In this document: one piece after another, positions 3,112-22,440 of the stretch
How the letters are laid out: every line of letters starts with the position of its first letter
How positions within the stretch are numbered: the stretch's first letter is position 1
DNA from: a virus
Strand: one strand, 5' to 3'
Virus record (IMG/VR): IMGVR_UViG_3300013120_000195
Location: 1 to 22,613 of that record
DNA length: 22,613 nt
Notes under the pieces: model-generated
Seen by the model: the letters and a program-made list of their open reading frames with translations, nothing else
Databases searched by the model: none
What the model was told of the DNA's origin: nothing
Translations under genes and position numbers: made by a program

Positions 3112-3497
3112 ACGTCGACCTTGTGACGTTCGAGCGAGTCGATCAACTGGTCGACGGCCCGGCGGCTCTTCATCCGCAGGCCGACGGTGGGCACCTCGTC
3201 GATGATGAGCATGAGGACCACGGCCTCGGGAGGCGTGCGGTCCGGCACCGGGTCCGACGACCATGAGAGCACGTCGTAGCCGACCAGCGCCATGTCGGGC
3301 AGCGGCGGCATCACTCCCGAGCCGTGCGGTTCCGGGAGAGGTCTGCGCTTCCCGCACGGGAGCCCGCCGATGAACTCCGCCGCGTCCTGCGTCGCCTCGT
3401 CGTACCCGTGCCGTTCGCGCAGCACCTTGATGATCGCGGCCAGCTTGTTCCCCAACCGCTCCGCGACCGCGCTGTCAGGTTCTCTCGTCTCACTCAT
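3093..3497 (-). CDS. Hypothetical protein (134 aa)
   Basis: The ATG at 3497 overlaps the stop of the SbcD-like gene as ATGA. The N-terminal part (residues 1-45) is a predicted helix (SETREPDSAVAERLGNKLAA). A Pro/Gly-rich middle follows, then a strand-rich C-terminal half (AVVLMLIIDEVPTVGLRMKS) ends in a helix (AVDQLIDSLERHKVDVWG). The C-terminal pattern of two strands followed by a helix recalls small unknown phage proteins, but no function can be given. Its last 19 bases overlap the start of the next small membrane gene. Confidence 0.72.
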   Translation of the reverse strand: MSETREPDSAVAERLGNKLAAIIKVLRERHGYDEATQDAAEFIGGLPCGKRRPLPEPHGSGVMPPLPDMALVGYDVLSWSSDPVPDRTPPEAVVLMLIIDEVPTVGLRMKSRRAVDQLIDSLERHKVDVWGARS

Positions 3498-8661: not shown

Positions 8662-8682
8662 ATCAGTCCCCGTCGAAAGTGA

Positions 8683-8712
8683 GAGGGGGTGCAGGTTGCC
8701 CCACACCCCCTC
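8683..8712 (-). terminator. GC-rich hairpin between parB-like gene and exonuclease gene
   Basis: GAGGGGGTG and CACCCCCTC form a perfect 9-bp stem around a 12-base loop. It lies between the stop of the ParB-like gene (8741) and the start of the exonuclease (8661). No long U-run follows on the minus strand, so it may be a weak or partial terminator or an RNA-stability element that lowers expression of downstream genes. Confidence 0.5.
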
Positions 8713-8740: not shown

Positions 8741-9976
8741 CTAGTCGAGATCCGCGTCGGGCGTGTGCTTGGCGGCTTCCGCCTTGACCACGGCCATGAA
8801 CGCAGCCAGCTCCTTCTGCAGCTTCGCGTACGACGGGTCGCCCTTGTCCGGAGTCAGCTCCGGAGCCACCGGGTCGTCCAGGTCGCCGCGATCCCACAGC
8901 GAGTAGGCGATCGCCCCGAGCAGCTCGTGGTACTCGGTCGAGCCCACGTCGCTCGCGTCGGTGTGCCCCAGCTCGTAGCACATGCGCTGGAGCATCGTCT
9001 GCTTCTCGGTCGAGGAGCGCCACGCGGTGAGGGACCGCTTCGGGTCCTTGCCCTTGGCCGTCTTCTGCGGCTCACCCTTCGCGGCGGCCTTCGCCTTCGT
9101 CTCCGTCTCGGCCGCCTTGCGCAGCTTGCGGATCTCGGGCGCGGTCGTGCTCGCGCTGATCTCACCCGCGAGCTTCTTCCGCATGGCCGGAGTGAGCTTG
9201 GCGACCTCCAGCCCGGCGTCGACGGACATCGTGCCCTTCGAGATGCGCTCCCGCACGTCGGTAGGCGTCTCCATCAGCTTGAGCGCACGGCGGACGCGGG
9301 CGATGTTGAGGCCGGTCTCCCGAGCGATGTGCGCAGGGAGCCACTCCTTCTTCGTGAGCTTCGCCACGACCCCGCCGATCTCCAGCATCGTGAGATTCGT
9401 GCGGCCGTCCTCGGAGTTCTCCGCAACGGCCACGGCGAGGGAACGCTCGTTGTCGCCCACGAGGTCGGTGCGCACCGTGCAGAGCACCGGGTCCTTGTAG
9501 CCGAGCTTCTTCAGCGCGAGATACCGACGCTCACCCGCGACGATCTCGTACTTCCCGGCGGCCTTCGCCGGTCGCACCACGAGCGAGGAGAGCAGACCCT
9601 CAGCCTTGATCGAGGCCATCAGGTCGTCGATGTCCCCCGGCGTCCCGCGCGGGTTGAACCCGGGGATGACAGCGAGCTGCTTCAGGTCGAGCGCAGCGGC
9701 GGTGCCTCGCTTCTTCGACGCGCCCAGGCGCAGCTCGGGATCGCCGGGCTTGCCCTTCGGCATCGAAGGCGGAGCGGCGGCAGTCCGCGCGGCGGCACCG
9801 GCCTTCTTCGTGACCTTCTTCTTGGTGCTCGCCTTCTTGCGCGTCGCGCCGGTCTTCTTCGTGACCTTCTTCTTGCGCGTCGTAGTCCCCCCGGTCTTCC
9901 GGGAGGTGGTCTTCTTCTTGCCGACCTTCTTCTTGGTCGTCCGCTTTTTGCGGTTGGCGGTTGCGGTTGCAGACAC
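8741..9976 (-). CDS. ParB-like protein with lysine-rich N-terminal tail
   Basis: The 411-residue protein starts at GTG 9976, with an ideal AGGAGG five bases upstream. Residues 1-60 are a lysine/threonine-rich, H1-like tail with repeated KKKVTKK and KKK motifs. Residues 95-200 form a ParB/Srx-type N-terminal domain: IPGFNPRG (NPR 108-110), then VAGERRYLALKKLG (GERR 148-151, the phosphate-binding box), then AENSEDGRTNLTMLE. A helix-turn-helix follows (LPAHIARETGLNIARVRRAL, about 213-232). The C-terminal 150 residues are helical and charged. ParB proteins bind centromere sites and clamp DNA using CTP; no ParA partner is visible here, so replication, regulation or a nuclease-like role is also possible. 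Confidence 0.88.
   Translation of the reverse strand: MSATATANRKKRTTKKKVGKKKTTSRKTGGTTTRKKKVTKKTGATRKKASTKKKVTKKAGAAARTAAAPPSMPKGKPGDPELRLGASKKRGTAAALDLKQLAVIPGFNPRGTPGDIDDLMASIKAEGLLSSLVVRPAKAAGKYEIVAGERRYLALKKLGYKDPVLCTVRTDLVGDNERSLAVAVAENSEDGRTNLTMLEIGGVVAKLTKKEWLPAHIARETGLNIARVRRALKLMETPTDVRERISKGTMSVDAGLEVAKLTPAMRKKLAGEISASTTAPEIRKLRKAAETETKAKAAAKGEPQKTAKGKDPKRSLTAWRSSTEKQTMLQRMCYELGHTDASDVGSTEYHELLGAIAYSLWDRGDLDDPVAPELTPDKGDPSYAKLQKELAAFMAVVKAEAAKHTPDADLD
9803..9952 (-). repeat. Lysine-rich tail repeat in parB-like gene
   Basis: This stretch encodes residues 9-58 of the ParB-like protein. It contains three near-repeats of a KKKVxKK unit separated by Thr/Gly/Ala/Arg spacers (TGATRKKAST). 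On the plus strand it appears as repeated cttcttc/gtgacc blocks. The same unit appears in the recombinase and helicase tails. Confidence 0.85.
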
Positions 9977-10075
9977 GGGGGCCTCCTGGGGCTATCGGTT
10001 CCTAGTCGTAGCGAGGGCCGGGCGGCCCCCGGTGCCGCTGAAGTTACCTCCAGCGGCGAGAGCGGTCAACGCGGG
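9977..10075 (-). promoter_or_regulatory. Leader with two tandem hairpins before parB-like gene
   Basis: The 99-base gap holds GCCGCTG/CAGCGGC (10034-10040 with 10051-10057, 10-base loop) and then CCGGG/CCCGG (10018-10022 with 10028-10032). In minus-strand order both fall after the recombinase stop and before the parB-like AGGAGG. No clear -35/-10 pair was found. Attenuation, termination or RNA processing are all possible. Confidence 0.5.
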
Positions 10076-11269
10076 TCAGGGCTCTTCGTCGTCCCCTTCC
10101 TCCATCTCCAGGAGCGCCCTCGCGCCCCCGGCCTTGACGACCTCCAAATACGCGCCCTGGGCGGCCTCCCGGAACTCCGGGTCCTCCTCCCACAGCGCGA
10201 TCCAGGCGTCGCCCTTCTCGAACTTCCGGCCCCCGGCCCAGGATCCGGTGTACTTCCCCCCGCCCGTCGATCGGATCCGGTTCGCGTCCTTGAGGACGTG
10301 CCAGACCGTCAGGATCGGCGAGGGGCCGTGCTTGAAGTCCAAGTACCACGTCGCCTTCTGATGCGGCGGCGCGCACTTGTTCTTCTTCGTCGTCGTCAGG
10401 ATCAGGTAGCCGCACGCCGGGCCGGACGTGCCGCCCTTCTTGACGGTCGAGACGCGGACGCAACGGACGCGCAGGGAGAAGGCGTACTTCGCCGCCTTGC
10501 CTCCGGTCGTCTGCAGCTCGGGTCCTCCGAAGCCGCCGAAGCCCCCGAGCTTCATCCTCTCCTGATTCACGAGGATGACGTGCGCGCGGGCGCGAGCGAT
10601 CTTCTTGAACAGCTTACCGCACTGAGAGGACAGCACGCGGGCCTTCGCCGCGACGTGCGAGTCCTCCGAGGACTTCTCATCGACCTCCACCTTCGCGGGG
10701 GACGCTCCAACGGAGTCCCACACGATCAGCGTCGGGTGCTCGGGCGGCTTCTCGATCAGCCGGTCGAGCATCTTGAAGACGACGTCGAACCCTTGCTCCA
10801 TGTGGTCCGGACAGACGTACACGAGCTTCTCAGGGTCGATGCCAAGCTGCAGTAGCGTCTTCTTCTCCAGCGCGTGCTCATAGTCGAGGTACACCGCTGT
10901 CCCACCCATCCGCTGACACTCGCGGATCGCAACGTGAGTCAGGGCGGACTTCCCCGAGCCCTCTGCGCCGAAGACCTCGCTGACCCGTCCGACAGGCCAG
11001 CCGTTGCCGAAGACCTCGTCGATGCCAGCGAAGCCCGTCGGGATCCACTCCACGACATCCGCCAGCGTCTCCGCGTCCTCGGCTCGAAAGACCTCCGCGC
11101 CCTTCACGGACCCGGCGGCCTCGATCAACTCCATCGTGAAGTCGGGGCTGCCCCCCGCCTTCTTCCGGCGGGAGGCACCCTTCTTCCTGGTGACCTTCTT
11201 CTTGGTCTTACGCTTTGCCCTTTTTGCGGCGGACTTTTTTCTTCCGCGCAGGCTGTCCTTGAGACCCAC
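10076..11269 (-). CDS. RecA/UvsX-like recombinase with lysine-rich N-terminal tail
   Basis: This strand-exchange ATPase would coat ssDNA and drive recombination-dependent replication. GTG 11269 is chosen because GGAGGG lies seven bases upstream, giving 397 residues. The first 38 residues are a lysine/arginine-rich tail (KTKKKVTRKKGASRRKK). The core follows: Walker A GAEGSGKS (101-108), the catalytic glutamate in YLDYEHALE (E131), Walker B LIVWDS (181-186), NQERMKLGG, a glycine-rich loop 2 (GGFGGFGGPELQTTGGK), and an acidic C-terminus (EMEEGDDEEP) as in bacterial RecA. Its first 62 bases overlap the end of the upstream gene in a different frame, and both frames encode basic residues there. The family call is very secure. 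Confidence 0.96.
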   Translation of the reverse strand: MGLKDSLRGRKKSAAKRAKRKTKKKVTRKKGASRRKKAGGSPDFTMELIEAAGSVKGAEVFRAEDAETLADVVEWIPTGFAGIDEVFGNGWPVGRVSEVFGAEGSGKSALTHVAIRECQRMGGTAVYLDYEHALEKKTLLQLGIDPEKLVYVCPDHMEQGFDVVFKMLDRLIEKPPEHPTLIVWDSVGASPAKVEVDEKSSEDSHVAAKARVLSSQCGKLFKKIARARAHVILVNQERMKLGGFGGFGGPELQTTGGKAAKYAFSLRVRCVRVSTVKKGGTSGPACGYLILTTTKKNKCAPPHQKATWYLDFKHGPSPILTVWHVLKDANRIRSTGGGKYTGSWAGGRKFEKGDAWIALWEEDPEFREAAQGAYLEVVKAGGARALLEMEEGDDEEP

Positions 11270-11537
11270 TGGAGCCCTCCAGGTACGCAACCAAGGCTTC
11301 TACGTCACCATCAGACCCGAGTGCGTCGTAGCACTCGTTCGTCGCTTGCAGGTTCCGGAGCATGGACTCGCGGAACATCACGTCGAGGTCGGCCTGCATC
11401 TGCTCGATGTCCGCCTCGGGGTCGTCGCCGACCACTCGCGTCAGGGACACGAAGCCAGCGACCGAGGAGAACTGCGTCAGAAAGACCTTGCCCTCGCGGG
11501 ACAGGCTCACCGAGTCGCCGGGTTTCAGCGTAGGCAT
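11208..11537 (-). CDS. Hypothetical protein with basic C-terminal tail (109 aa)
   Basis: It starts at ATG 11537 and overlaps the recombinase start by 62 bases. The N-terminus is beta-like (LKPGDSVSLSREGKVFLTQF), which could be a small barrel; the middle is an acidic helix (DDPEADIEQMQADLDVMF); the C-terminus is a linker (GSSGSQGQ) and a basic tail (ARKKKVRRKKGKA). It sits between the gp32-like and RecA-like genes and shares their lysine-rich tail style, so a role with the recombination proteins is plausible. No family is recognised. Confidence 0.75.
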   Translation of the reverse strand: MPTLKPGDSVSLSREGKVFLTQFSSVAGFVSLTRVVGDDPEADIEQMQADLDVMFRESMLRNLQATNECYDALGSDGDVEALVAYLEGSSGSQGQPARKKKVRRKKGKA

Positions 11538-11553
11538 CGCTCACCCCCAGGGG

Positions 11554-12729
11554 TTACTTACCCTTGCCGGAGACCCGACTCTTGATCGAGGCTGCCGCAC
11601 CCTTCGGCTTGCGAGGGGTCGTCTTCTTGGCCGTCTTCTTCGCGGTCTTCTTGGCCGTCTTCTTCTTGGAGGTCTTCTTGCGCGCGGGGGCAGGAGCCGG
11701 TTCGGGCTCCTCTTCCTCCTCGTCCTCCTCCTCGACGACCTCACACTCGCTGATCGGGATGCACCACGGCTCGTCCGGGTCCTCACCCTCCTCAACGATC
11801 AGGAGGCACGAGTCGTCTTCGTCGTCGTAGCCAGTGACCTCGCCGACGACCTCGTTCTCATCGTCGTCCTTGAACGTCACGACCTTGCCGACCCACTCGT
11901 CCTCCTCGGCTTCCTCCTCTCCTTCTTCAGCCTCGGCGTCGGGGTCGGGCTCCTCTTCCTCCCCGGTCTCGGCCGCCGGTTCTTCGGCAGCGTCGTCGGA
12001 CGAGGTTCCGAGATCGCCAGCCTTCACGGCCTCGACCATCTTCTTGTAGCGCGCGGGGAACTTGGTCTCGCCCGTCAGCCCTTCATAGATGGCGAGCAGA
12101 GCCTCCAGATCCACGGCGAAGAAGTGGTCGCGCACCGAGAAGCGGCCCGCGAGGTCGACCCACGCTTCGGCCAGCTCGTCGTCTTCCGAGATCGGACAGG
12201 GGTCGAGCTTGTGGACGTCCCAAACCGTGTCGAGTTGGGCGCCCGTCTTCTTGACGAGGAGATCCCGACCCTCCAGGGGATCGGTGATGTCCTCGCCCAC
12301 GTCGTCGTCGAGCATCATCTTGACGACGGCTTGGTACACGGAGTGCTTGCCCCGCAGGATCCGGACGTTCGGCGTCTCGGCCGTCCCTTCTTCGGCGCGG
12401 TCGATCACCGGGATCCAGTATTCCACGGAGCGACGGACGAAGGACTTGGCGAAGTCCTTGTCCTCCTTGCTGCCCTCCCGGTACAGGCGATCGAGGTAGT
12501 CGAACACCGGGCAGGGAAGGCCGAACGCTCGGGGCGAAGTCGTGCCCTTGTTGAGCGGCTTGCTGAACATCGCCGGGTACTCGATCCCCGGCAGCTCGTC
12601 CTCGGGCGGCGGCAGGATGCGAATCTGCATCTTGCTGAAGGTCTTGTTGTTGATCCTCAGCCCGCCACGTTCCATGCGCTTCTGCTGGCCGAGCAGCTTG
12701 TCCCGCATGGCCTGGGAGATTTTCGGCAT
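11554..12729 (-). CDS. T4 gp32-like ssDNA-binding protein with extra beta domain and lysine tail
   Basis: The 391-residue protein has a gp32-type core in residues 1-240: FSKMQIRILPPPED, PCPVFDYL, SVEYWIPVID, then GEDITDPLEGRDLLVKKTGA and a VWDVHKLDP strand. This matches the ssDNA-binding OB-fold proteins of T4-like replisomes, though only one cysteine is left where relatives carry a zinc-binding set. Residues 241-278 are very acidic. Residues 279-331 look like a small SH3/KOW/Tudor-like barrel (WVGKVVTFKDDDENEVVGEV, CIPISECEVV). Another acidic run follows (EEEDEEEEEPEP), then a lysine/alanine tail (SKKKTAKKTAKKTAKKT). Acidic tails are known to bind partner proteins in SSBs; the barrel and the basic end are unusual. 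Confidence 0.82.
   Translation of the reverse strand: MPKISQAMRDKLLGQQKRMERGGLRINNKTFSKMQIRILPPPEDELPGIEYPAMFSKPLNKGTTSPRAFGLPCPVFDYLDRLYREGSKEDKDFAKSFVRRSVEYWIPVIDRAEEGTAETPNVRILRGKHSVYQAVVKMMLDDDVGEDITDPLEGRDLLVKKTGAQLDTVWDVHKLDPCPISEDDELAEAWVDLAGRFSVRDHFFAVDLEALLAIYEGLTGETKFPARYKKMVEAVKAGDLGTSSDDAAEEPAAETGEEEEPDPDAEAEEGEEEAEEDEWVGKVVTFKDDDENEVVGEVTGYDDEDDSCLLIVEEGEDPDEPWCIPISECEVVEEEDEEEEEPEPAPAPARKKTSKKKTAKKTAKKTAKKTTPRKPKGAAASIKSRVSGKGK
11557..11682 (-). repeat. Lysine/alanine tail repeat in gp32-like gene
   Basis: This stretch encodes residues 350-391, with four tandem KKTA units (KKTAKKTAKKTAKKT) followed by PRKPKGAAASIKSRVSGKGK. The composition resembles the C-terminal tails of linker histones and bacterial H1-like proteins. 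Confidence 0.85.
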
Positions 12730-12799
12730 GTCAATCAGTCCTCAGCTCGTCTTGGTTTTCAGGTTTCGGATTGCGCCTTCGTCGGGGCGGTGGTGCGGC

Positions 12800-13297
12800 T
12801 CAGCCGCTAGGTGCCCACTGCTTCGGCGCGAGCAGCCGCTGCAGGATGCGTGCCCTGTGGTCCAGGGCATCCCGTAGCGACCGCAGCACAGCATACTGCC
12901 TGCGCAGTCGGTCCAGCCTCTCTTTCTCGGAATTCAGCTCCGGGAGGATGTCCAGCCGCGCCCGGATATTGGCCTCCGTGGGAACGTCGGTGGTGTGCTC
13001 GTCGATGTAGCGCCTCTGGAGGACGTACGCCTCGCCTTCTTGCGTCGCCACGACCCGCTCTCCGACCCTCAGCGCGTGCAGCGCACGCTCCGTCTGGTAC
13101 GACCAAAACGCGAGACGGGCAGGCGCGGTCCGGGCCTGCTTCCGCAGGATGTCCGGGTCATCGCTGATCGCCAGCTCGTCCGCCATTCGCGCCTTGACGG
13201 TTCGCCCGTCCTCCAGCACGACCTTGATCGCCTCGATGCCCGCGAGGTGGTTCTCGCCGTGCTCGATGCGCTTCTTCCGTCTGACCTTCTTCGCCAT
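12800..13297 (-). CDS. Possible UvsY-like recombination mediator (165 aa)
   Basis: ATG 13297 overlaps the endonuclease stop as TGATG. The N-terminus is basic (AKKVRRKKR), then a short strand pair (AIKVVLEDGRTVKARMADEL). The rest is helical and charged, with an Arg-rich pattern (AFWSYQTERALHALRVGERV, LNSEKERLDRLRRQYAVLRS, ending in a helix with HRARILQRLL). Placement just before the gp32-like and RecA-like genes, and the mostly helical make-up with a TEANIRARL segment, fit a UvsY-type mediator that loads UvsX on gp32-coated DNA. There is no sequence proof; it could be another small replication accessory. Confidence 0.45.
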   Translation of the reverse strand: MAKKVRRKKRIEHGENHLAGIEAIKVVLEDGRTVKARMADELAISDDPDILRKQARTAPARLAFWSYQTERALHALRVGERVVATQEGEAYVLQRRYIDEHTTDVPTEANIRARLDILPELNSEKERLDRLRRQYAVLRSLRDALDHRARILQRLLAPKQWAPSG

Positions 13298-13818
13298 CAG
13301 AAAGGCGTCTCCCCGGTCAGGAAGGGATCAGGTTTGTGCGAGGGGAGTCCATCCCACCCCTCGCGTTTCGCTTGCGCGTCGACCTCGGCCTCTACTCGCA
13401 GCCACTCCTCCGGGTCGTACCCGCAGTAGCCCTGGACGCGGTTCCGGTCGAGGTTGTTCTCCTCGTGCGTCCCCCAGCGCAGGTTACACACGCGGTTGTC
13501 CTCCGGGTCGTGGTTCGGACCGTGCAGCACCTCCGCACCCACGAAGGGCGGCGGCCCAACGTGCGCGAGGAGCACCGCGAGATGCACCGACATCGAAGTC
13601 TGCTTCCCTTCCGCGCGCAGGTTCACGTACGGATAGAGCCCCCGGTACCCGCGACGCGACTGCTTCAGGACGCGCCCCTTGTACCGACGCGGCGCGACCT
13701 TCCCGCTCCTCGAACGCACCATCTCCGTGCGGTCGACAGAGCGAACGCGGCCGAGCGAGGACGCCTCGTAGCGTCCCGCGAATCCGGGGATGGGCTTCCA
13801 CAGCTCCTTGTCGGTCAC
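13297..13818 (-). CDS. HNH endonuclease with NUMOD4 domain
   Basis: The 173-residue protein starts at GTG 13818 (GTGA overlap with the upstream stop). Residues 5-30 are an NUMOD4 motif (ELWKPIPGFAGRYEASSLGR, then VRSVDR), usually part of homing-endonuclease DNA recognition. Residues 78-125 form an HNH_3-type fold: SVHLAVLLAHVGPP, then VLHGPNHDPEDNRVCNLRWG and THEENN. Key residues are H79, H99, H103, N108 and N112. Such free-standing enzymes are common selfish passengers in phage genomes. It sits in-frame with operon coupling, so it does not obviously interrupt a gene. Confidence 0.9.
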   Translation of the reverse strand: MTDKELWKPIPGFAGRYEASSLGRVRSVDRTEMVRSRSGKVAPRRYKGRVLKQSRRGYRGLYPYVNLRAEGKQTSMSVHLAVLLAHVGPPPFVGAEVLHGPNHDPEDNRVCNLRWGTHEENNLDRNRVQGYCGYDPEEWLRVEAEVDAQAKREGWDGLPSHKPDPFLTGETPF

Positions 13819-14003
13819 TTCGAGTCGGTCAGCTTCTCCACCGCAGCCTCGAACCGCTGCAGCTTCTCCTCCAGGATGTGCTCCAGACGCTGCACCTCGC
13901 CCGAGATGGTCTGCGCCGCTCTGTCGATCTGCTCCGCCGCCGACGAGATCGTGCTCGCCGCGCGTCGCACGTCCTCGGACCCCTGCAGGTACACGGACTC
14001 CAT
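13815..14003 (-). CDS. Small coiled-coil protein (62 aa)
   Basis: ATG 14003 follows AGGAGG at close spacing. Nearly the whole product is heptad-like helix (AASTISSAAEQIDRAAQTIS, then EVQRLEHILEEKLQRFEAAV), so a coiled-coil oligomer is expected. It resembles no known family that can be named. Its stop overlaps the GTG of the HNH endonuclease, and it lies eight bases downstream of the Arg/Trp-rich gene. Confidence 0.72.
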   Translation of the reverse strand: MESVYLQGSEDVRRAASTISSAAEQIDRAAQTISGEVQRLEHILEEKLQRFEAAVEKLTDSK

Positions 14004-14011
14004 CACGCCTC

Positions 14012-14302
14012 CTATTCGAGCACCCACCGACGGATGCGTCTCGCCGCCCGAACCCACCAACGTCGACGCGGAGCGTGCGTGACCTTCCAACGCAACTGCG
14101 TGGCGGTCGGCCCCTGCATCGGCTGAAGCGGGATCAGGTCCTCGATGAGATTCCCCGGACTCGGGGCCTGGATAATCGGCATCTGGAACTCGCGGAACCC
14201 GTCCGCGAGCTGACGCCGCGCCTTGCGCCGTAGCCGCCACCGCCTCCAACGGGCTCGTACCCGCCAGATCGGAATGCGCTCGGGCTCTGGACAGAGCGTC
14301 AT
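14012..14302 (-). CDS. Arg/Trp-rich hypothetical protein (96 aa)
   Basis: ATG 14302 overlaps the polymerase stop as ATGA. Both ends are extremely basic and tryptophan-rich (RVRARWRRWRLRRKARRQ near the N-terminus; RRRWWVRAARRIRRWVLE at the C-terminus), with a neutral, proline-rich middle (MPIIQAPSPGNLIEDLIPLQ). This composition fits nucleic-acid or membrane binding. No family is recognised. Confidence 0.65.
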   Translation of the reverse strand: MTLCPEPERIPIWRVRARWRRWRLRRKARRQLADGFREFQMPIIQAPSPGNLIEDLIPLQPMQGPTATQLRWKVTHAPRRRWWVRAARRIRRWVLE

Positions 14303-17178
14303 GCCGCCTCCGCCATGCGCTCCCACAGCTCGTCGATGTCAAGGTGATCGAGGTCGAGGCCGACGAGCGTCCCCCACGTCGAGCCGACCTCACAGTCGGC
14401 GATGATCGGCACCTGCAGCCAGGACCAGTCGAGGCCCGGCAGCACTTCGTCGGAGAGCTGCGGCAGGTTCTCCATGATCCCCCTCGCCAGCGTCGCCACC
14501 TCGATGAACTCGTCGACATGGCAGTCGAAGATGATCGAGTCGTGGACGGTGAGGATGATCTTGGAGCGCAGGCCGCGCTTCCGCATCTCCCGCCAGATCA
14601 GCACGAGGGACATGAGCGTCATGTCCGACGCGGTGGACTGGATCGGGAAGTTGATCGCCTGCCGTAGCGCACGGGAGACGATCTGGTCGTCGACGGAGCG
14701 CACCTCGGGCACACGGCGGCGTCGTCCGGTGAAGGTCTCCAGGAAGCCCACGCGCTTGACGTGCCGCTCCAGCTTGGCGATCCCCGTCCGCAGCGCCGGG
14801 CGAACCTTGAAGTACCGCTCGATGAGCTTCTGCGCTTCCTCGACGGTGAGGAAGACGCCGTCCTTCTTGAGCGTGTTGACGAGCGCCGGAGGACCACCGC
14901 CGTACAGGATCCCGAAGTTCACCCGCTTGGAGCGTGTGCGCCACGCCTTCTGGTCCTTCGGGTCCAGCGCCTCGTACCCCTCCTTGCCGAGCCCGCTCAC
15001 GTCGATCGCCGTCTGCGTGTGAACGTCCGCGCCCGCCTTGTACGCGCGGATCATGCTGGGCTCTTTGAAGACCGAGGCCGCAACGCGCAGCTCGATCTGG
15101 CTGTAGTCGGCCTGAAGGATCAGGCCCTCGTCCCCGAAGCGCGAGACGTATGCGCGCTTCACGCGCCCGCCGTCCTTGTTCGGGATGTTCTGCAGGTTGG
15201 GGTTCGCCGACGCGAGCCGTCCGGTCACGGTGCCGTGCAGGAGGAACTCGCCGTGGAGCAGGCCGAAGGGATCGAGGCGCTCGGACAACGGGCGCACGAA
15301 GGTCCCGAGGAGCGTCTGCGCAGCGCGGTACTCCAGGATCGTGCTCGCCAGCTCGTTCCCGCGACGGTCCAGCTCCTGCAGCACCTCGGCGTCGGTCGAG
15401 AAGTGCTGCCACTCCGCCTTCTCCACCGCGTCGCGCACCACGTCCATGAACTCGGGCGGCTTGCCCTTGCGCTTCTTCGTGTGCGCAGTCTTCCACCGCT
15501 TGTACCTGAGCCCCAAACGATCGAGCCCGCCCTTCGTCAGATGGACGGGCTGCTCGCCGTAGTAGCCTCGGTCGAACAGGACGACTTGAAGCTGCGGCGT
15601 GCTGCCGGGGTTGAATGAGTCGCCCTTCCCAGCCGCCTCGCGGGCCTTGATGAACTTCCGGACCGTCGGCAACTCCTGGATCGCCGTCGCTGCCGCGTCC
15701 TGCTCGCCCTGGAAGTGCTCCTCCAAGTCGGCAGCGACCTCCTGGTCGACCTTCGCACCCTGGAACTCCATATCCGCGAGAACGTCGGAGAGGGCGGGCA
15801 GGAACGAGTCCGCGAGCAGCTCACACTTCTCCGTGAACTCGGGTGACTCGCGCATCGCGCGGTCGACGCGGCAGGTGCAGTCTGCGTCCATCCCCGCGTA
15901 CCTGAAGATCAGCTCGCCCGGGATGTTGGAGTACGAGCCGCCGCGATCCGGGTCGCAGTCCGCGTGCGCAGCGATCCAGTCCTCCAACGGCTTCTCGTAC
16001 CCGCCCATGCCGGTGTAGGCATACGCGAGCGTCTTCAGCCCGTGGGTGCCGCGCTTCTCGTCGAGGGTCAGGTGCGTCGTCATCGTGTCGCGCACGTTGA
16101 GGACCTCGACCTTGAGCGCAGCGCGGATGTGCTTCGCGTCGAACTTGCTGTTCTGCGCGCGTTTGTCGATCTCGGGGTCAGCGAAGAACTCCGCCAGGGC
16201 CGCGATCAGCGCGGGCCGCTCGTGCTCCTTCTCCCCGCCGATGCGCCACGGCGAGTCCGGGTGGTCGAACGGGACGGTGAAGCCATACCCCTCCTCGTCC
16301 GAGAAGCTGAAGCACGCGAGCGGGGGGAATTGGTCCTGCCACCAATCGAGAGCGCCCGTCTCCGTGTCGAAGTACACCGGGCGGCCGTTCTCCCTGAACG
16401 CCTGTAGCAGCGCCAGGACATCGTCCAGCTCGGTGAGGGTGAAATACTCCCCGAGCCCGAGCAGCTCCTCGTGCTCGCCCTTCAGGAAGGCGTCAGCGGT
16501 GCGCAGCGCCTCGGCGAAGCGGTCCAGCTCGTGATCGAAGCGGAGGATGTACGCCGGGTGCAGGCAACCGAGCACGCGCAGGTCCGGGAACTCGGGTCGA
16601 ACGCAGTCGAGCAGCTTCCCGGTGAAAGAGGTGATCCCCGTCTGCCCGGCCAGGAACTCCAGGCTCCCGTTCCCGAGCGCGACGATCAGGCGCGGCTTCC
16701 GTGCGGCGATCTCGCGTATCAGCTCCGGCGAGCAGGACTTGATCTCGGTCTTGTTGGGGTTCCGATTCCTCGGCGGTCGGCAGCGCACGAGGTTCGTGAT
16801 TCCCACGCGCCACTCGCCGTCCATGAAGGACTCGATCGAGTTCCGTAGCAGCGTCCCCGATCGTCCAACGAAGGGCGTCGCCTTCCGGTCTTCGTCCGCG
16901 CCCGGTGCTTCCCCAACGAAGAGTACGTCGCACTCCGTCCATTCCTCCGAGACGCAGCGCGAAACGACCGTGTGTCCGTCCGGCTCCTTCGCCAGAATCT
17001 TGTCGGCGGTGCGGTGATACTCCCCGCCGCCTAGACAGTCGGGGAAGTCAGCACTCCACGGCAGGAGCGAGCACCAAAAGCAACCGGACTTCGGCTCGAC
17101 CGTGCCCGGCTCCACGAAGGGCCGTGCCGTTGGCAGGCTGCCACTGGCAGACCGCAGTCGAGCTTTGATACCGCTCAC
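14299..17178 (-). CDS. Family-A DNA polymerase fused to an N-terminal uracil-DNA glycosylase-like domain
   Basis: The 959-residue replicative polymerase starts at GTG 17178, overlapping the upstream TGA (GTGA) with GAGG eight bases before it. Residues 30-230 are a family-4 UDG-like domain: C33, C36, C133 and C149 as probable 4Fe-4S ligands, GEAPGADED (89-97), PFVGRSG, TNLVRCRPPRNRNP and HPAY. Residues 265-440 are a DnaQ-like 3'-5' exonuclease (D271, E273; NSKFD with D347; YAGMD with D431). Residues 460-930 are the Pol A domain: motif A LQADYSQIELR (D691), motif B RTRSKRVNFGILYG with K751 and F755, motif C TVHDS (H879, D880). No 5'-3' exonuclease domain is present. A UDG-like extension on a Pol A enzyme is known from phage SPO1-type polymerases. 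Confidence 0.96.
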   Translation of the reverse strand: MSGIKARLRSASGSLPTARPFVEPGTVEPKSGCFWCSLLPWSADFPDCLGGGEYHRTADKILAKEPDGHTVVSRCVSEEWTECDVLFVGEAPGADEDRKATPFVGRSGTLLRNSIESFMDGEWRVGITNLVRCRPPRNRNPNKTEIKSCSPELIREIAARKPRLIVALGNGSLEFLAGQTGITSFTGKLLDCVRPEFPDLRVLGCLHPAYILRFDHELDRFAEALRTADAFLKGEHEELLGLGEYFTLTELDDVLALLQAFRENGRPVYFDTETGALDWWQDQFPPLACFSFSDEEGYGFTVPFDHPDSPWRIGGEKEHERPALIAALAEFFADPEIDKRAQNSKFDAKHIRAALKVEVLNVRDTMTTHLTLDEKRGTHGLKTLAYAYTGMGGYEKPLEDWIAAHADCDPDRGGSYSNIPGELIFRYAGMDADCTCRVDRAMRESPEFTEKCELLADSFLPALSDVLADMEFQGAKVDQEVAADLEEHFQGEQDAAATAIQELPTVRKFIKAREAAGKGDSFNPGSTPQLQVVLFDRGYYGEQPVHLTKGGLDRLGLRYKRWKTAHTKKRKGKPPEFMDVVRDAVEKAEWQHFSTDAEVLQELDRRGNELASTILEYRAAQTLLGTFVRPLSERLDPFGLLHGEFLLHGTVTGRLASANPNLQNIPNKDGGRVKRAYVSRFGDEGLILQADYSQIELRVAASVFKEPSMIRAYKAGADVHTQTAIDVSGLGKEGYEALDPKDQKAWRTRSKRVNFGILYGGGPPALVNTLKKDGVFLTVEEAQKLIERYFKVRPALRTGIAKLERHVKRVGFLETFTGRRRRVPEVRSVDDQIVSRALRQAINFPIQSTASDMTLMSLVLIWREMRKRGLRSKIILTVHDSIIFDCHVDEFIEVATLARGIMENLPQLSDEVLPGLDWSWLQVPIIADCEVGSTWGTLVGLDLDHLDIDELWERMAEAA

Positions 17179-17408
17179 CCGACGACCTCTGCCGACTCAC
17201 GTCTGCGCCAGGGTTGCTCGTACTCTTCTACGAACGGGGACCCGTGCTGCTTCGGACGTGGTGGCGCGAGGCGATCGAACGGCAAAAGGAACACTCGGTG
17301 GGTAGCCGCATACGAGTCCCAGCACGCGACGCGAACGTCACAGCTAGAGCACTCTTCGCAGCGTTCCGGTGTTCCGAAGCATTGAGGGAGTCGCGTCTTC
17401 CGAGTCAT
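17175..17408 (-). CDS. Cysteine-cluster protein (77 aa)
   Basis: Five closely spaced cysteines (C10, C17, C20, C23, C29, in CFGTPERCEECSSCDVRVAC) suggest a zinc or iron-sulfur site. The remainder is basic/aromatic (RVFLLPFDRLAPPRPKQHG) with an acidic-aromatic end (FVEEYEQPWRRRESAEVV). Its stop overlaps the polymerase start, so the two are translationally coupled, and the polymerase's own N-terminal domain is predicted to be an Fe-S protein. Function unknown. The ATG at 17408 is 15 bases beyond a large hairpin, so this may open a new transcript. Confidence 0.7.
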   Translation of the reverse strand: MTRKTRLPQCFGTPERCEECSSCDVRVACWDSYAATHRVFLLPFDRLAPPRPKQHGSPFVEEYEQPWRRRESAEVVG

Positions 17409-17422
17409 GAGCAGACAAGCAG

Positions 17423-17457
17423 GCAGGCCACCCCGGTATGTTTCCGAGGTGGCCTGC
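17423..17457 (-). other. Strong hairpin before polymerase transcript
   Basis: A 14-position stem with one C-A mismatch (17423-17436 with 17444-17457) closes on a 7-base loop TATGTTT. It lies between the beta-helix gene and the Cys-cluster gene. There is no U-run after it on the minus strand, so it is not a textbook terminator; it may be a processing site, operator or leader structure. Confidence 0.65.
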
Positions 17458-17460
17458 GCA

Positions 17461-17488
17461 GGTCAAGGATGACCCAAAAAAGTCCCGC
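17461..17488 (-). terminator. Weak terminator-like element and possible -35 box after beta-helix gene
   Basis: On the minus strand the stop of the beta-helix gene lies inside a short TCCC/GGGA stem, which is followed by C and six Ts (17475-17480), as in a weak intrinsic terminator. Just after it is TTGACC (17461-17466), a good -35 match, but the best -10 at 17 bases (AAACAT, in the hairpin loop) matches only three of six. A promoter for the polymerase operon here is possible but not shown. Confidence 0.4.
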
Positions 17489-19210
17489 TCAGGGATTGGG
17501 TTCGATGCCGTAGGCGTCGATCTCCGGGTTCGTGAGGTTGCGAGTGCCCTTCGACATCTTCACACCGGACTGGAAGCCCGAGTGGCCGGAGAGCGGAGCA
17601 CCCGCCGTCTCGCGTTCGATCTCGACCGTGCCGTTGTCGATGCCGCCACCCCACGGCGTGTCGAGACAGATCGCGGTGCGATTTCCCTTGATCTCGAAGC
17701 CGTCCAGGATCTCCAGCTTCTCGACGCCGGAGAAGGCCGCATGGTTGCGGTTCGCGTTGGGGTGGTCGCACTTGAAGCCCGAGACGATGACGTGCCGATG
17801 GCTGTAGCCGGTCGGCGTCAGGTACGCGCCGTGACCCTTGTCGGTCCAGGCGACGATCGCGCCGTTCGAGCGGAGCTGTCCGTGCTGCGCACCGTGGCTC
17901 TCGCAGTCGACGAACGCGGCGAGTCCCCTGCAGCCGACCAGCGTGAAGTCCGAGCCGCCGCCGGAACCCTCGTGGATGCCGCGTGCGATGCAGCGCAGCA
18001 CGAGGATGTCGCCGAACTGGCTGGGACCGGACTGCTGCCGGTTGGTCATCTGCAGGAACGTCCGTCCGTTCGAGAGGCCGTCCGCATACGGGAGCACCTC
18101 CAGGTCGACGAAGACGGAGTCGCCCTGGAAGTTGTCGCCATAGAACGAGTGCTCCTGCGCGGGCTCGAAGGTGACGCGGCGGAGGTCCCACTGCGCGGGT
18201 CCGTGCGCGCGACACGCCCACTTCATCCCGTAGCCGCCGTACCCGTTCCGCGACTGCACACCCAGGTGCAGGTCGTACCCGGTGATGAGTCCGACGACGT
18301 TGTTCATCGCGGTCATCAAGGGCGCGTATGCGTGCTGGTTGTTGAAGATCCCGAGACCCTCCAGGCGGAAGCCGTCGACTCCGCCCAGGTTGCCCCAGAA
18401 GCTGTACCCGCCGTGAACGCGAGTCGTGTCCTTGCCTTCGCCGAGCAGCGCGACGTCGCGGATCACGTCCGAGTCGTTCCACGTCGCCGTGAACTGCTTG
18501 CCGAGCGAACCCCCGCCGATCGAGCAGCCGGGATACGGGCGGTCGCCTTTGAGCAGGATCACGTCACCCGGGCGAGCACGTCGAATCGCCTCGGCCTCGG
18601 GGTACACGAGCGGCAGGTGCCACTGGCCGTAGGTGCTGATGACCTGTCCCGTCTCCAGCATCGTGATCTTCCAGTCGCCGGGGCCGTCGCCGGTCGGCTC
18701 GATCTCGATGGTCGGAGTACCGATCGACACCTCCGGCGGAGGCTCGAAGCCGGAGTTTCCGCCGCCGGGCGGGTCGTACGGTCGCCACGGGACGCAACGG
18801 CGGTGCTTGCGAGCCCACCGGATCATCCGCGTGCGAATCTCCGGCGTGACGGTGATCGGACCGCGTCCGGCGATCAGGATCTCCTGGTCGACGCGCGGGA
18901 ACTTGCAGCCGCCACGCGGGCGGATCTCCGTCACCTCCCCGAGCGGTTCGACTTCGTAGTCGACGATGAGACCGCGATCCGTGCGGCCGACTCCGCCTCT
19001 CCCGTCCCCCGTGTCGCTTCCGCGATCGACTTCGCCCTCCTCGCCGCGAGCAGGCTCCGTTTCCGGATCGGGGTCAGTCTCGGGGTCTTCCTCGTGGCCG
19101 CCTGGACGACGGCCCCTGATGAGCTTCTTCAGACTTCGGGCCGACACGCCGATCGAGTCCGCATCCGCAGCGATCTCGTCGAGCGCCTCCCGCACTTCGC
19201 GTAGTTGCAT
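17489..19210 (-). CDS. Parallel beta-helix (pectin-lyase-fold) protein, tailspike/depolymerase-like
   Basis: The 573-residue protein starts at ATG 19210, eight bases after AAGGAG. Residues 1-30 form a helix (QLREVREALDEIAADADSIG) that could trimerise; residues 36-80 are an acidic, low-complexity linker. From about residue 205 to 560 there are repeated short strands with Gly/Asn turns typical of right-handed beta-helices: EAIRRARPGDVILLKGDRPY, GFRLEGLGIFNN, HVIVSGFKCDHPNAN, LEILDGFEIKGNRTAICLD. Such folds in phages usually bind or cut host surface polysaccharides. No catalytic acid pair can be assigned by eye. It is the only structural-type gene here and is placed between primase and polymerase. 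Confidence 0.82.
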   Translation of the reverse strand: MQLREVREALDEIAADADSIGVSARSLKKLIRGRRPGGHEEDPETDPDPETEPARGEEGEVDRGSDTGDGRGGVGRTDRGLIVDYEVEPLGEVTEIRPRGGCKFPRVDQEILIAGRGPITVTPEIRTRMIRWARKHRRCVPWRPYDPPGGGNSGFEPPPEVSIGTPTIEIEPTGDGPGDWKITMLETGQVISTYGQWHLPLVYPEAEAIRRARPGDVILLKGDRPYPGCSIGGGSLGKQFTATWNDSDVIRDVALLGEGKDTTRVHGGYSFWGNLGGVDGFRLEGLGIFNNQHAYAPLMTAMNNVVGLITGYDLHLGVQSRNGYGGYGMKWACRAHGPAQWDLRRVTFEPAQEHSFYGDNFQGDSVFVDLEVLPYADGLSNGRTFLQMTNRQQSGPSQFGDILVLRCIARGIHEGSGGGSDFTLVGCRGLAAFVDCESHGAQHGQLRSNGAIVAWTDKGHGAYLTPTGYSHRHVIVSGFKCDHPNANRNHAAFSGVEKLEILDGFEIKGNRTAICLDTPWGGGIDNGTVEIERETAGAPLSGHSGFQSGVKMSKGTRNLTNPEIDAYGIEPNP

Positions 19211-19251
19211 GGCAATGTTCTCCTTGGGAAAGAGGCCAAGGAGGCAGCCTA

Positions 19252-19347
19252 TCAACACGAACGTGCGGCGAGGAAGCACGCGATCGCCAAAAGCGTGACG
19301 AGCGTGCCCACGTACAGGCGTAGGCGATCCTGGGGCGTCCGGGTCAT
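19252..19347 (-). CDS. Possible 31-aa membrane peptide
   Basis: A short frame from ATG 19347 encodes a basic N-terminus (MTRTPQDRLR) and one hydrophobic segment (LYVGTLVTLLAIACFLAARS). The composition fits a small membrane peptide, matching the other tiny membrane proteins in the window. However, no ribosome binding site is visible upstream (the leader is C-rich), so it may not be translated. Confidence 0.32.
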   Translation of the reverse strand: MTRTPQDRLRLYVGTLVTLLAIACFLAARSC

Positions 19348-19466
19348 CGGGGGCGCGGGGGGTCAGATTCCCAAAATAGGGGACCGACGGCTCTGCGGGG
19401 CCGCCGGTCCAGGCCCACCCCAGCGGGGGCCGAGAGACAAGGGAACCGTCCTACCTCGGCCGCCCC

Positions 19467-19488
19467 GGGGCCGCAAGCCCCTCTTTTT
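19467..19488 (+). terminator. Plus-strand intrinsic-terminator-like hairpin
   Basis: GGGGC (19467-19471) and GCCCC (19477-19481) form a 5-bp GC stem with a CGCAA loop, followed by TCTTTTT. The T-run is on the plus strand, opposite to the genes around it, so it would stop antisense transcription entering or leaving this region. Confidence 0.55.
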
Positions 19489-19594
19489 GCTTTCCCCGGG
19501 ATCGGTGGTACTGTGAGGATACCTACGGGGGACTGAAGCGACCCCGCATGGTTGTGAGGAGCTGAGAGAACCTCCTCTCGTCTTCCTAGACGAC

Positions 19595-19629
19595 GGCCCC
19601 CGGGACGACCTCCTGACGCCCCGGGGGCC
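19595..19629. other. Perfect 10-bp GC-rich inverted repeat
   Basis: GGCCCCCGGG and CCCGGGGGCC pair without mismatch over a 15-base loop. It is the strongest stem in the intergenic region. A terminator, RNA structure or protein-binding palindrome are all possible; no long T-run follows on either strand. Confidence 0.65.
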
Positions 19630-19689
19630 ACTTTGGTTCCGCCCTTCCCCGGTCTTCCGACCCCTCTGTTCGCCCGGGGTCCGCACACC

Positions 19690-19695
19690 TACAAT
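19690..19695 (+). promoter_or_regulatory. Candidate plus-strand -10 box (TACAAT)
   Basis: TACAAT matches five of six bases of the sigma-70 -10 consensus and stands out in GC-rich DNA. It is 45 bases before the plus-strand ATG at 19741. No good -35 lies at 16-18 bases, so the call is tentative. Confidence 0.4.
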
Positions 19696-19740
19696 GCGCC
19701 CCTCAATGTTCCGAGGCGCGTAGCGTCTCTCAAATAGATA

Positions 19741-19884
19741 ATGGATCACCACTGGAACCTGGAGCCGTCCGAAGCGGTCGCCCAGGAGGAGGTCATCGAG
19801 GCGGGTAGCCTGAACGACGCCACGCTGGCGGCCATCAACGCGGCCGTCGCTGCGGCCGTCGCGGAGGCCCTGGCTGCCAAGTAG
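19741..19884 (+). CDS. Tiny plus-strand protein (47 aa), opposite to all other genes
   Basis: The frame encodes a polar, acidic N-terminus (MDHHWNLEPSEAVAQEEVIE) and an alanine/valine-rich helix (LNDATLAAINAAVAAAVAEA), amphipathic at best and not clearly transmembrane. GC-rich third positions are as in real genes. It has a candidate -10 box upstream and a plus-strand terminator 22 bases after the stop, so it looks like a self-contained transcript. There is no ribosome binding site before the ATG, so either translation is leaderless or weak, or the transcript is a small RNA. No family is recognised. Confidence 0.5.
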   Translation: MDHHWNLEPSEAVAQEEVIEAGSLNDATLAAINAAVAAAVAEALAAK

Positions 19885-19905
19885 CCGGACCTCAATCTCA
19901 TCCCG

Positions 19906-19940
19906 AGCCCGGTCGCCCGACGCGGCGGCCGGGCTTTCTT
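19906..19940 (+). terminator. Intrinsic terminator after the plus-strand mini-gene
   Basis: AGCCCGG (19906-19912) and CCGGGCT (19929-19935) form a 7-bp stem followed by TTCTT on the plus strand. On the minus strand the side facing away from the primase gene has no U-run, so the element is oriented for plus-strand transcription, though it may also slow convergent minus transcription. Confidence 0.65.
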
Positions 19941-19944
19941 CGTG

Positions 19945-20961
19945 TCAGCGTCCCAGTCGTTGACGAATGCGATCGGCGGTGGACGGGACGCCGCGTCCTT
20001 CGAGCAGCATCTCCAGCTCGTCCCGACGTTCCCACGGGTCGCCCTGGTCGAGTCCGAGCACCGTCACCTCCGGCACGACAGGGAGCAGCGCAGAGTACAG
20101 CGCGTCGATCTCCTTCCCCGCCATGTGGTCGAGTGCGATCACGACCTCCTGCAGTCCCGCCGCGCGCAGGTGCGCGAACAGCCTGACCTGCTCCGGTGAG
20201 GCGAACTTCCCGAGCAGCGCGACCGCGTGCTCGAAGGCCATCATGTCGAACGGTCCCTCGACCACCGCGATGCGTTCGACGCCGAGGCAGTTGTCGTAGT
20301 TGAGCAGACACGTCCCGCGTTGGTGGAAGCCTTCCTCGTTCGGCTCGTTGAGCGACTTCGGGATGCGTTCGTCGTCCGGGTCGTCGCACAGGCGCGTCGT
20401 GAAGTACACCTGCGCGTTCTCCTGGATCACCGGGAACACGAGCCGGTTCCGATACCGCCCCTGCGTGCAGTACCCGATCTGGAAGCGTTCGACGAACTCC
20501 CAGGGCACGCCTCGATCCTCCAGGTACTCCAAGCCCGGACGGAGGCTCGGGGCCTTCAACGTCTTCTTCTCCGCGTCCGCGAGGATCAGGCACGGCAGCG
20601 GCAGCTCGCGCGGCTTCAGATCCGGGAGTGGCTCAGGCGGAGCGAAGACCTCGCGCACCGCACGCGCGACGCTCGTGCGCGGGGGCGTCGTCTCGTCGCG
20701 GAGGAGAGCCAGCTCCTCCATCCGCACGAAGCCACCGTTGAGGTAGCGAAAGAGCTGTCCGAAGCTACCGAAGGCGAAGCCACAGCGGAAGCATCCGCCG
20801 ACGCGCTTCTGCACGTTGATCCCGAGCTTGCGTCCTCGGCTCTCCGTCCCGATGCGGTCGATGCACGCCGGGCAGTTGAACTGGTACTCCGGTCCGCGCC
20901 CCGAGTGCGCGCCCATCCGCTCGTCGAGGTACGCGAGCAGGTTGGTGAGCTTGCGGACCAC
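19945..20961 (-). CDS. DnaG-type primase with degenerate TOPRIM DxD
   Basis: The 338-residue protein starts at GTG 20961 with GAGGGG seven bases upstream. An N-terminal zinc finger is present (C30, C33, C57, C60: CPAC and CFRCGF). The primase core follows: YLEDRGVPWEFVERFQIGYC, then RYRNRLVFPV, FTTRLCDD and PKSLNEP. The TOPRIM starts at VVEGPFDMMAFEHA (E235). The next motif, normally DxD then G, reads ALDHMAGKE (D278, M280), so the second acidic residue is missing; a later LDQGDPWE matches the third motif. The enzyme would make primers for the helicase-coupled replisome encoded just upstream. It lacks a recognisable helicase-binding C-terminal domain. Family call is secure; activity is less so. 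Confidence 0.9.
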   Translation of the reverse strand: MVRKLTNLLAYLDERMGAHSGRGPEYQFNCPACIDRIGTESRGRKLGINVQKRVGGCFRCGFAFGSFGQLFRYLNGGFVRMEELALLRDETTPPRTSVARAVREVFAPPEPLPDLKPRELPLPCLILADAEKKTLKAPSLRPGLEYLEDRGVPWEFVERFQIGYCTQGRYRNRLVFPVIQENAQVYFTTRLCDDPDDERIPKSLNEPNEEGFHQRGTCLLNYDNCLGVERIAVVEGPFDMMAFEHAVALLGKFASPEQVRLFAHLRAAGLQEVVIALDHMAGKEIDALYSALLPVVPEVTVLGLDQGDPWERRDELEMLLEGRGVPSTADRIRQRLGR

Positions 20962-20964
20962 GAA

Positions 20965-22440
20965 TCACCCCTCGAAGTCCAGCTCCTTCTTGGGCCGGGT
21001 GAGCTTCTTCTTCTTGACCTTCTTCTTGCCCTTCTTCGTGACCTTCTTCTTGCGCGTCAGCCCGACCGACTCCTTGACCGCGTCGACCTTCATCGCGTGC
21101 GCCTCGATGTCGCCGCCGATCCGCGTACCCGCCACGTCGAGAACTCCAGTCGAGGAGATCAGGCAGCAATCCCGTCGGATGTCGCACTCGATCGTCCGGC
21201 CGTCCTCAACGTCCCGTAGCCCGGCAGCAAACAGACGCGCACGACCGTCGATGCGTTCGTCGTCCGTCTGGCAAAAGGCGAAGGCCGCGTCCACGATGGC
21301 CGCCTTCTCGAAGGCTTCCGCGAAGTCCTCGATGGTGATGACCTCCTTCTGCAGCGCGGCCTGCTTCGCCTGCGAGCCCGTCCACACCGCAGCGTCGAAC
21401 TCGCCAGCGATCGCGCGCAGGTCCTCGTAGATCCCCGCCTGCTCGTGCCGCATCTCACCGAGCCGCCGCTCCGGCTTCATGATGTCGGCGTAGTCGACGA
21501 TGATGACGTCGGGATAGAACTCGCGCGAGGCCAGGAGTGCGAGGTGCGAGCGCACCGTCGAGATCGTCGCCGAGCGCGTCGGGTACGACTTCACGAAGAG
21601 GCGGCCAGGGAGGAGCTTCGTCGCGCGAGCCTTCAGCTCCTGCACGTACCGTATCGGGTCGCTGCGCTTGTACTTCACGCGCAGCCCCATCAGGCGGTCG
21701 TCGTACCGCTGCGTCACCTTCTGGTCGTTCATCTCCAGCGAGTAGTGGGCGACGTTGAGACCGGACACGTCGCTCAGCGCACCGAAGCCGATGTTGATGA
21801 GCGTCGTGCTCTTGCCGCGCTTCGGCGGTGCCAGGATCACTCCCAGCTCGCCGCGTCCGAGACCTCCCGCGAGAACCGCGTCCAGGTGCTCGATGCCCGT
21901 GCGGACGCCGGTAAACACCTTCTGCGGATCGGTGTACCACACGGCGCGGTCGTCGATGTCGGCCCGGTAGTCAATCCCGATCTCCAGGAGATCCTCACCG
22001 ACGAGCAGCGCGTCGTCGATCAGCGGGCGCACGTCGCGGTTGCCCTTATCCAGTCGTCCGGCTGCTTCGACGATCGCGTTGACGAGTGCCTGCTGCTTGC
22101 CGAAGGCCACCGCCTTCTGCATCACGGCGTGCGCGTCCTGAACGTCGTGCCCGTACAGCTCGCCGAGCGCCGACTCGACAGGAGCGAAGTCGTCCTTCCC
22201 GACGAGCGGGCGGATGTCCTCGATCAGAGTCGGGTGCGTCGGGAGGCGACGCTCTTCGTCGATGTGCGCGAGGAGCGCGCGTGCGATGATCCGGTTCGCG
22301 TCAGAGACGAAGAACGTGTGGTCGAGTGCCGTGCGGTACCGGATGCAGAATCCCGGCACGCGGCACATCACCGCCAGGATGTGATCCTGGAAGGGAGCGC
22401 CGAAGTCCTGGCTGTAGTTGACCGCCTCCTTCTTCGGCAT
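20965..22440 (-). CDS. DnaB-type replicative helicase with lysine-rich C-terminal tail
   Basis: The 491-residue protein starts at ATG 22440 and is followed four bases later by the primase start codon. An N-terminal helical domain occupies about residues 10-160. The RecA-fold motor includes GIEHLDAVLAGGLGRGELGV, Walker A APPKRGKST (204-212), AHYSLEMND, Walker B VIIVDYADI (312-320) and TGSQAKQAAL. A long lysine tail ends the protein (RKKKVTKKGKKKVKKKKL, about 463-480) before LTRPKKELDFEG. This is the hexameric helicase that unwinds DNA ahead of the polymerase. The tail is not part of the usual family. Confidence 0.94.
   Translation of the reverse strand: MPKKEAVNYSQDFGAPFQDHILAVMCRVPGFCIRYRTALDHTFFVSDANRIIARALLAHIDEERRLPTHPTLIEDIRPLVGKDDFAPVESALGELYGHDVQDAHAVMQKAVAFGKQQALVNAIVEAAGRLDKGNRDVRPLIDDALLVGEDLLEIGIDYRADIDDRAVWYTDPQKVFTGVRTGIEHLDAVLAGGLGRGELGVILAPPKRGKSTTLINIGFGALSDVSGLNVAHYSLEMNDQKVTQRYDDRLMGLRVKYKRSDPIRYVQELKARATKLLPGRLFVKSYPTRSATISTVRSHLALLASREFYPDVIIVDYADIMKPERRLGEMRHEQAGIYEDLRAIAGEFDAAVWTGSQAKQAALQKEVITIEDFAEAFEKAAIVDAAFAFCQTDDERIDGRARLFAAGLRDVEDGRTIECDIRRDCCLISSTGVLDVAGTRIGGDIEAHAMKVDAVKESVGLTRKKKVTKKGKKKVKKKKLTRPKKELDFEG
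20986..21054 (-). repeat. Lysine-rich tail of helicase gene, 28-base match to parB-like gene
   Basis: This stretch encodes KKKVTKKGKKKVKKKK. Plus-strand bases 21031-21058 are identical to bases 9854-9881 in the parB-like gene, in the same codon phase. Low-complexity AAG codons explain part, but not all, of this match. Confidence 0.8.

Follow-up and report, generated by a model that had tools for sequence, protein, structure and literature searches.

Four replication and recombination proteins of an uncultured phage lineage, i.e. a ParB-like protein, a UvsX/RecA-like recombinase, a gp32-like SSB and a DnaB-like helicase, carry long lysine-rich tails at fixed termini. Comparison between genomes supports position and charge as the shared feature of these tails, and not a sequence module. 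Tail strengths co-vary, which suggests one shared charge-based system that holds the machinery on DNA. With a probability of about 0.5, the tails would be disordered polycations through which the machinery is tethered to DNA and probably also docks on the acidic arm of the SSB.

The stretch analyzed (the window), a 22.6 kb viral contig from IMG/VR, has 66% GC, and no tRNA genes were found over its whole length. All of the replication/recombination genes identified in it are on the minus strand (Table 1). These encode the DnaB-like helicase, a primase, a UDG-exonuclease-PolA fusion, an HNH/NUMOD4 nuclease, ORF165, the gp32-like SSB, ORF109, UvsX/RecA, the ParB-like protein, FEN, Mre11 and an SbcC-like protein. 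The ParB-like protein has an HTH_ParB match below the Pfam cut-off. The RecA start is likely the GTG at position 11269, since the relatives begin with MGLKD. The nearest named relatives of the window DnaB are the Herelleviridae phages LysYB1, Goe26 and SPO1 (36–38%), and that of the window RecA is Goe26 (36%).

Several other features of this region were observed. In the window and in the relative L185, a uracil-DNA glycosylase superfamily domain precedes the exonuclease and family A polymerase in one fused protein. A homing endonuclease gene is present between the polymerase and UvsY-like genes. A 596 aa protein encoded between the polymerase and primase genes appears beta-helix-like by eye; Pfam and PHROG gave no match to it. 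A second IMG/VR contig of 12.4 kb, L002 (IMGVR_UViG_3300009128_001003), matches the window genes from DnaB to RecA at 100% protein identity.

Table 1. Positions of genes, tails and domains in the window, and of selected genes on related contigs (prefix L).
Feature	Position	Strand	Evidence or remark
DnaB-like helicase, 491 aa	20965..22440	-	Pfam DnaB_C 7e-16, phrog_19 6e-59
DnaB C-terminal lysine tail, residues 463–485	20986..21054	-	+15 per 40 residues
Primase	19945..20961	-	untailed control
596 aa protein	17489-19279
UDG-superfamily + exonuclease + family A DNA polymerase fusion	14299..17178	-	untailed in window
NUMOD4/HNH homing endonuclease gene	13297-13818	-
ORF165, UvsY-like mediator by predicted fold	12800..13297	-	AF2 + PDB fold matches
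gp32-like SSB, 391 aa	11554..12729	-	phrog_1192 4e-15; Foldseek to T4 gp32 core 1gpc E 9e-9
SSB acidic linker 1, residues 243–280	11890..12003	-	residues 239–280 net charge -22
SSB Tudor/SH3-like barrel (predicted), residues 281–331	11737..11889	-	net charge -17; AlphaFold2 + Foldseek
SSB acidic linker 2, residues 332–347	11689..11736	-	net charge -10
SSB C-terminal lysine tail, residues 350–391	11557..11682	-	+18 per 40 residues
ORF109, conserved, function unassigned	11208..11537	-	homologues in ten relatives
UvsX/RecA-like recombinase, likely GTG start	10076..11269	-	Pfam RecA 3e-41, phrog_97 5e-54
RecA N-terminal lysine tail, residues 8–37 (from GTG at 11269)	11159..11248	-	+20 per 40 residues
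ParB-like protein, 411 aa	8741..9976	-	Pfam ParB_N 4e-11, phrog_1033 4e-25
ParB N-terminal lysine tail, residues 9–58	9803..9952	-	+21 per 40 residues
FEN/RNase H-like nuclease	7681..8706	-	untailed control; position + conservation
Mre11/SbcD-like	3494..4516	-	untailed control
RecA and DnaB genes with likely inteins, and a terminase-like gene with a LAGLIDADG domain, in relatives	L024:15604-17661; L023:131-3043; L165:3661-6669
Likely small terminases with C-terminal lysine tail	L019:10403-11143; L165:2877-3587; L167:5733-6539
316 aa acidic protein of G003	L008:5073-6023		lysine block at end, +19 per 30
Distant relative of the 316 aa protein, in G004	L015:9981-11102
SSB with two predicted Tudor-like barrels	L221:5305-6705

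Tail strength is expressed as the highest net charge per 40 residues. The first-pass annotation had listed seven tailed proteins, and this number is reduced to four. The long tails of ParB and RecA (N-terminal) and of SSB and DnaB (C-terminal) are all in real, conserved genes and at the termini first assigned. They are of the H1-like or lysine-repeat type, i.e. long KK-rich ends on DNA-binding proteins, with disorder predicted for the SSB only. The three shorter cases were dropped because of overlap or a length of about 10–11 residues. ORF109 ends with RKKKVRRKKGKA, yet bases 11208–11269 double as the RecA start in another frame, thus its basic end is not an independent tail. The putative tail of ORF165 is just MAKKVRRKKR, ten basic residues at the N-terminus, and that of the SbcC-like protein (positions 18–44) is about 11 residues long. 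As an observation in its own right, a single lysine-rich DNA stretch provides basic ends for both ORF109 and RecA in different frames, and this overlap recurs in the gene calls of L022, L024 and L186.

No tail was found in the window on primase, FEN, Mre11 or the polymerase C-terminal end, where net charge ranges from -5 to +1 per 30 residues; the polymerase fusion displays a short basic N-terminal end in several relatives but not in the window. To describe the tails as spread across a replisome is thus an overstatement, since tails are missing from primase, nuclease and Mre11 and from most of the polymerase.

ORF165 is conserved and is encoded between the polymerase and SSB genes. Its AlphaFold2 model (pLDDT 83) has T4 UvsY as all of its best 15 PDB matches (TMq to 0.57, probability 0.98–1.0), with weak E-values of 0.04–0.2 and about 13% identity. 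The earlier suggestion that it is a recombination mediator is supported at this fold level. No UvsY family was among its Pfam or PHROG hits.

About 19 uncultured contigs related to SPO1/T4, here treated as one clade, came from scans with the polymerase, DnaB and RecA, and gene order is kept wherever visible. Their DnaB cores are 46–64% identical to that of the window. The tails are at the same termini in relatives of 35–60% identity; position and charge are conserved and the tail sequence is not, with the exception of short flanking elements. For example, by eye, the DnaB tail is preceded by VKESVGLT in the window and by (L/M)KD.xG(I/L)T in relatives, and a PR[KR]PKGA-like element recurs in the SSB tails of the window and relatives. 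DnaB has a basic C-terminal end in all ten clade contigs where this end is readable (+9 to +20). The SSB, RecA and ParB tails are strong in the window, G005, G006 and L186, and weak in G009, L183, L185 and L191. The last four, together with L221, have weak alanine/proline-rich ends and retain the replication genes, thus strong tails are not essential.

Outside of the clade the charge is at most +8 in DnaB (n=49) and RecA (n=65). The SSB tail has a precedent in Herelleviridae: a lysine block is present in the SSB of Bacillus phage Goe26, which also ends in lysines. Likely inteins were also seen in RecA (685 aa) and DnaB (970 aa) of relatives; their Pfam intein-splicing matches do not reach the curated cut-off. 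The likely intein of DnaB contains LAGLIDADG, and a terminase-like protein has a LAGLIDADG domain as well.

Enrichment was analyzed in eight whole contigs, and a protein was counted as tailed when a 30-residue window at one end reached at least +13. By this measure the four families have 14 tailed proteins out of 25, against 9 of 561 others (odds ratio 78); the Fisher p of 6e-16 is nominal, since homologues are not independent. Three of the nine others (in G004, G005 and G006) belong to one family, located just before a large protein that is terminase-like by position, and G004 adds a T4-type portal (Pfam 9e-43); from this position and the portal the family is likely the small terminase. In G003 and G009 it is untailed or weakly tailed. 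Tailed members are listed in Table 1, as is a 316 aa acidic protein of G003 which ends in a lysine block.

The tails may alternatively be separate DNA-affinity extensions of the HupB/HupS/Ku type, with no contacts between tailed proteins and no hub, and with covariation reflecting a common demand, e.g. host ionic conditions or genome packing. This is rather unlikely. In its favour, lysine-rich ends are typical of DNA-binding proteins, and the likely small terminase, which is outside the replisome, is tailed in three relatives. However, the tails concentrate in four functionally linked families, whereas other DNA-binding proteins (FEN, primase, Mre11 and polymerase) are untailed.

The first-pass annotation had asked whether tails are gained together. 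Tail strengths do covary between genomes. Spearman coefficients of tail charge are 0.86 for SSB–ParB (n 11), 0.71 for SSB–RecA (n 12), 0.93 for DnaB–SSB (n 6) and 0.90 for DnaB–ParB (n 5), and RecA–ParB is weaker (0.55, n 12, p 0.06). Independent contrasts on the polymerase tree give 0.79, 0.65, 0.55, 0.88 and 0.59, respectively. This tree has an unresolved base, and two changes are enough to account for the strong/weak label, thus few independent events lie behind the covariation. The Spearman coefficients stay about as high when core lysine content is partialled out. Lysine content was rejected as the cause of the tails, as tail charge is not predicted by core lysine.

The idea of a common module is therefore retained for the shared termini, the enrichment and the covarying charge, but not for sequence. 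A nine-residue stretch, TRKKKVTKK, is identical in the ParB and DnaB tails, with 28 identical bases (4/3000 tail shuffles). A unit common to three tails had also been proposed; a 5-mer shared by three of the four window tails is not unusual for their composition (345/5000). A sequence module across genomes was rejected, since at the protein level tails are no more alike within genomes than between them (3-mers 184/2000, 4-mers 97/2000). The 9-base DNA words are slightly more alike within genomes (4/2000), which may originate from codon bias; a strong AAG codon bias is present. Tandem Repeats Finder shows 12-base arrays inside the SSB and DnaB tails. Turnover of such repeats is the probable way in which the tails grow, while their charge would be maintained by selection.

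Such repeats bring up neutral expansion, in which slippage of AAG-rich 12-base repeats would lengthen disordered ends that tolerate it. The arrays and the codon bias are what this process would leave, as are the rapid turnover of tail sequence at constant position and the (KKKT)n tract of one likely small terminase, about eleven units at L167:5733-6539. Neutral expansion as the whole explanation is nevertheless improbable: the same four families are affected repeatedly and others rarely, there is no link to core lysine content, and charge is kept in tails that have no simple repeats (DnaB of G005, RecA of G003).

The SSB contains the gp32 OB-fold core, which also matches 2a1k and 8gme. AlphaFold2, with 13 homologues, predicts this core followed by an acidic, disordered linker, by a barrel modelled with confidence at residues 281–331 (pLDDT 81–88) and by a disordered remainder that includes the tail (pLDDT about 40). 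The net charge is -4 in the core, about -49 at residues 239–347 and +19 in the tail. Thus the acidic C-terminal arm of gp32-type SSBs is present, and the protein then ends basic. Foldseek matches of the barrel are to PHF1/PHF19 Tudor (TMt 0.66–0.78, about 0.74; rmsd 2.2) with weak E-values of 0.03–0.1. The barrel is present in the clade SSBs, in two copies in that of L221, and the F286 and W322 positions are aromatic throughout the clade. In an alignment by eye to PHF1, two of the four cage positions are aromatic, and a full methyl-lysine cage is not evident. The protein is thus predicted to be a gp32-like SSB that contains a Tudor-like domain flanked by acidic stretches. This would be an unusual architecture, if true; a search of the open-access literature turned up no pertinent description of a phage SSB with a Tudor domain.

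A Tudor-like domain could act as a reader, binding lysines, perhaps modified, in the partner tails, as Tudor domains do with histone tails. The best small-domain matches, PHF1/PHF19 Tudor, include several structures solved with H3K36me3, and the domain and its two aromatic positions are kept in the clade. But the fold match is weak (E 0.03–0.05), only two of the four cage positions are aromatic, KOW/NusG domains, also Tudor-like barrels, are among the matches, and weak-tailed members keep the domain. A reader function is accordingly hardly probable.

Acidity of the SSB rises with the charge of its own tail (rho -0.74, p 0.004, n 13), and with the ParB and RecA tails there are trends only. After phylogenetic correction the links are borderline or weak (r -0.48, -0.47 and -0.32, with 41, 59 and 180 of 1000 permutations as strong). 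A charge-matched replication compartment, in which the tails would engage the acidic Tudor-bearing gp32 arm as well as phage DNA and the charges of tail and arm would coevolve, is a tentative and unlikely extension.

The preferred reading, tethering to DNA with docking on the SSB, would proceed as follows. The four proteins would have acquired disordered lysine tails at fixed termini under common selection on charge and not on sequence. Each tail would most likely serve as a polycationic anchor: it would bind nucleic acid irrespective of sequence and so hold its protein on the phage DNA during replication. The tails would also dock reversibly on the acidic SSB arms, which is probable because the arm is unusually acidic and ends in a basic tail of its own. 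Docking could load helicase and recombinase onto SSB-covered DNA and raise their local concentration, possibly as a condensate.

The clustered genes for a gp32-fold SSB, UvsX-family recombinase, UvsY-like mediator and DnaB-type helicase resemble the T4-type module (gp32, UvsX, UvsY, gp41), to which the clade adds lysine tails on three of these proteins and on ParB. In T4 gp32 the acidic A-domain binds partner proteins and the basic N-terminal end contacts DNA (PMC3012046). The T4 protein ends with its acidic domain and has its basic segment at the N-terminus, whereas the arm of the clade SSB bears a Tudor-like domain and has a basic end. The SPO1-like Herelleviridae (SPO1, Goe26, LysYB1) provide the closest named DnaB relatives, but no strong lysine tail is present on their DnaB or RecA. 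In the Goe26 SSB a lysine block, an acidic stretch and a lysine end are seen, but by sequence no Tudor-like domain. Condensation of E. coli SSB needs its disordered linker (PMC10906006). The SSB-Ct hub of that protein is likewise a partner-recruiting arm, however it has a nine-residue acidic tip, and any contact here would be diffuse and polyelectrolyte in nature.

Prokaryotic DNA-binding proteins are enriched in lysine-rich low-complexity regions (PMC6821194). HupB and HupS have a lysine-repeat domain, and truncation of the HupB C-terminal end abolishes DNA affinity (PMC11229371). These and related bacterial tails are, like those described here, disordered KK-rich ends on DNA-binding proteins. 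They are on single host proteins, in contrast to the present set, in which four proteins of a phage are tailed together and tail strengths covary. The HupB and HupS precedents also raise host mimicry, i.e. tails that copy an actinobacteria-like habit of the host. This is very improbable: when 84,980 species genomes were searched for the clade polymerase, to identify the host, no relative was found, and contig GC ranges from 52 to 67%.

Lysine-rich disordered ends on DNA-binding proteins are thus already known. Searches of the open-access literature found no phage replisome with shared lysine tails, nor such a concerted set on four replication/recombination proteins within a single phage lineage. 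The tail system touches current questions on SSB-driven condensates. Lysine tails have been known on single bacterial DNA-binding proteins, and the clade provides natural variants that range from strong to weak. It is therefore testable whether non-specific charge, as opposed to specific contacts, can hold a replisome and recombination machinery together.
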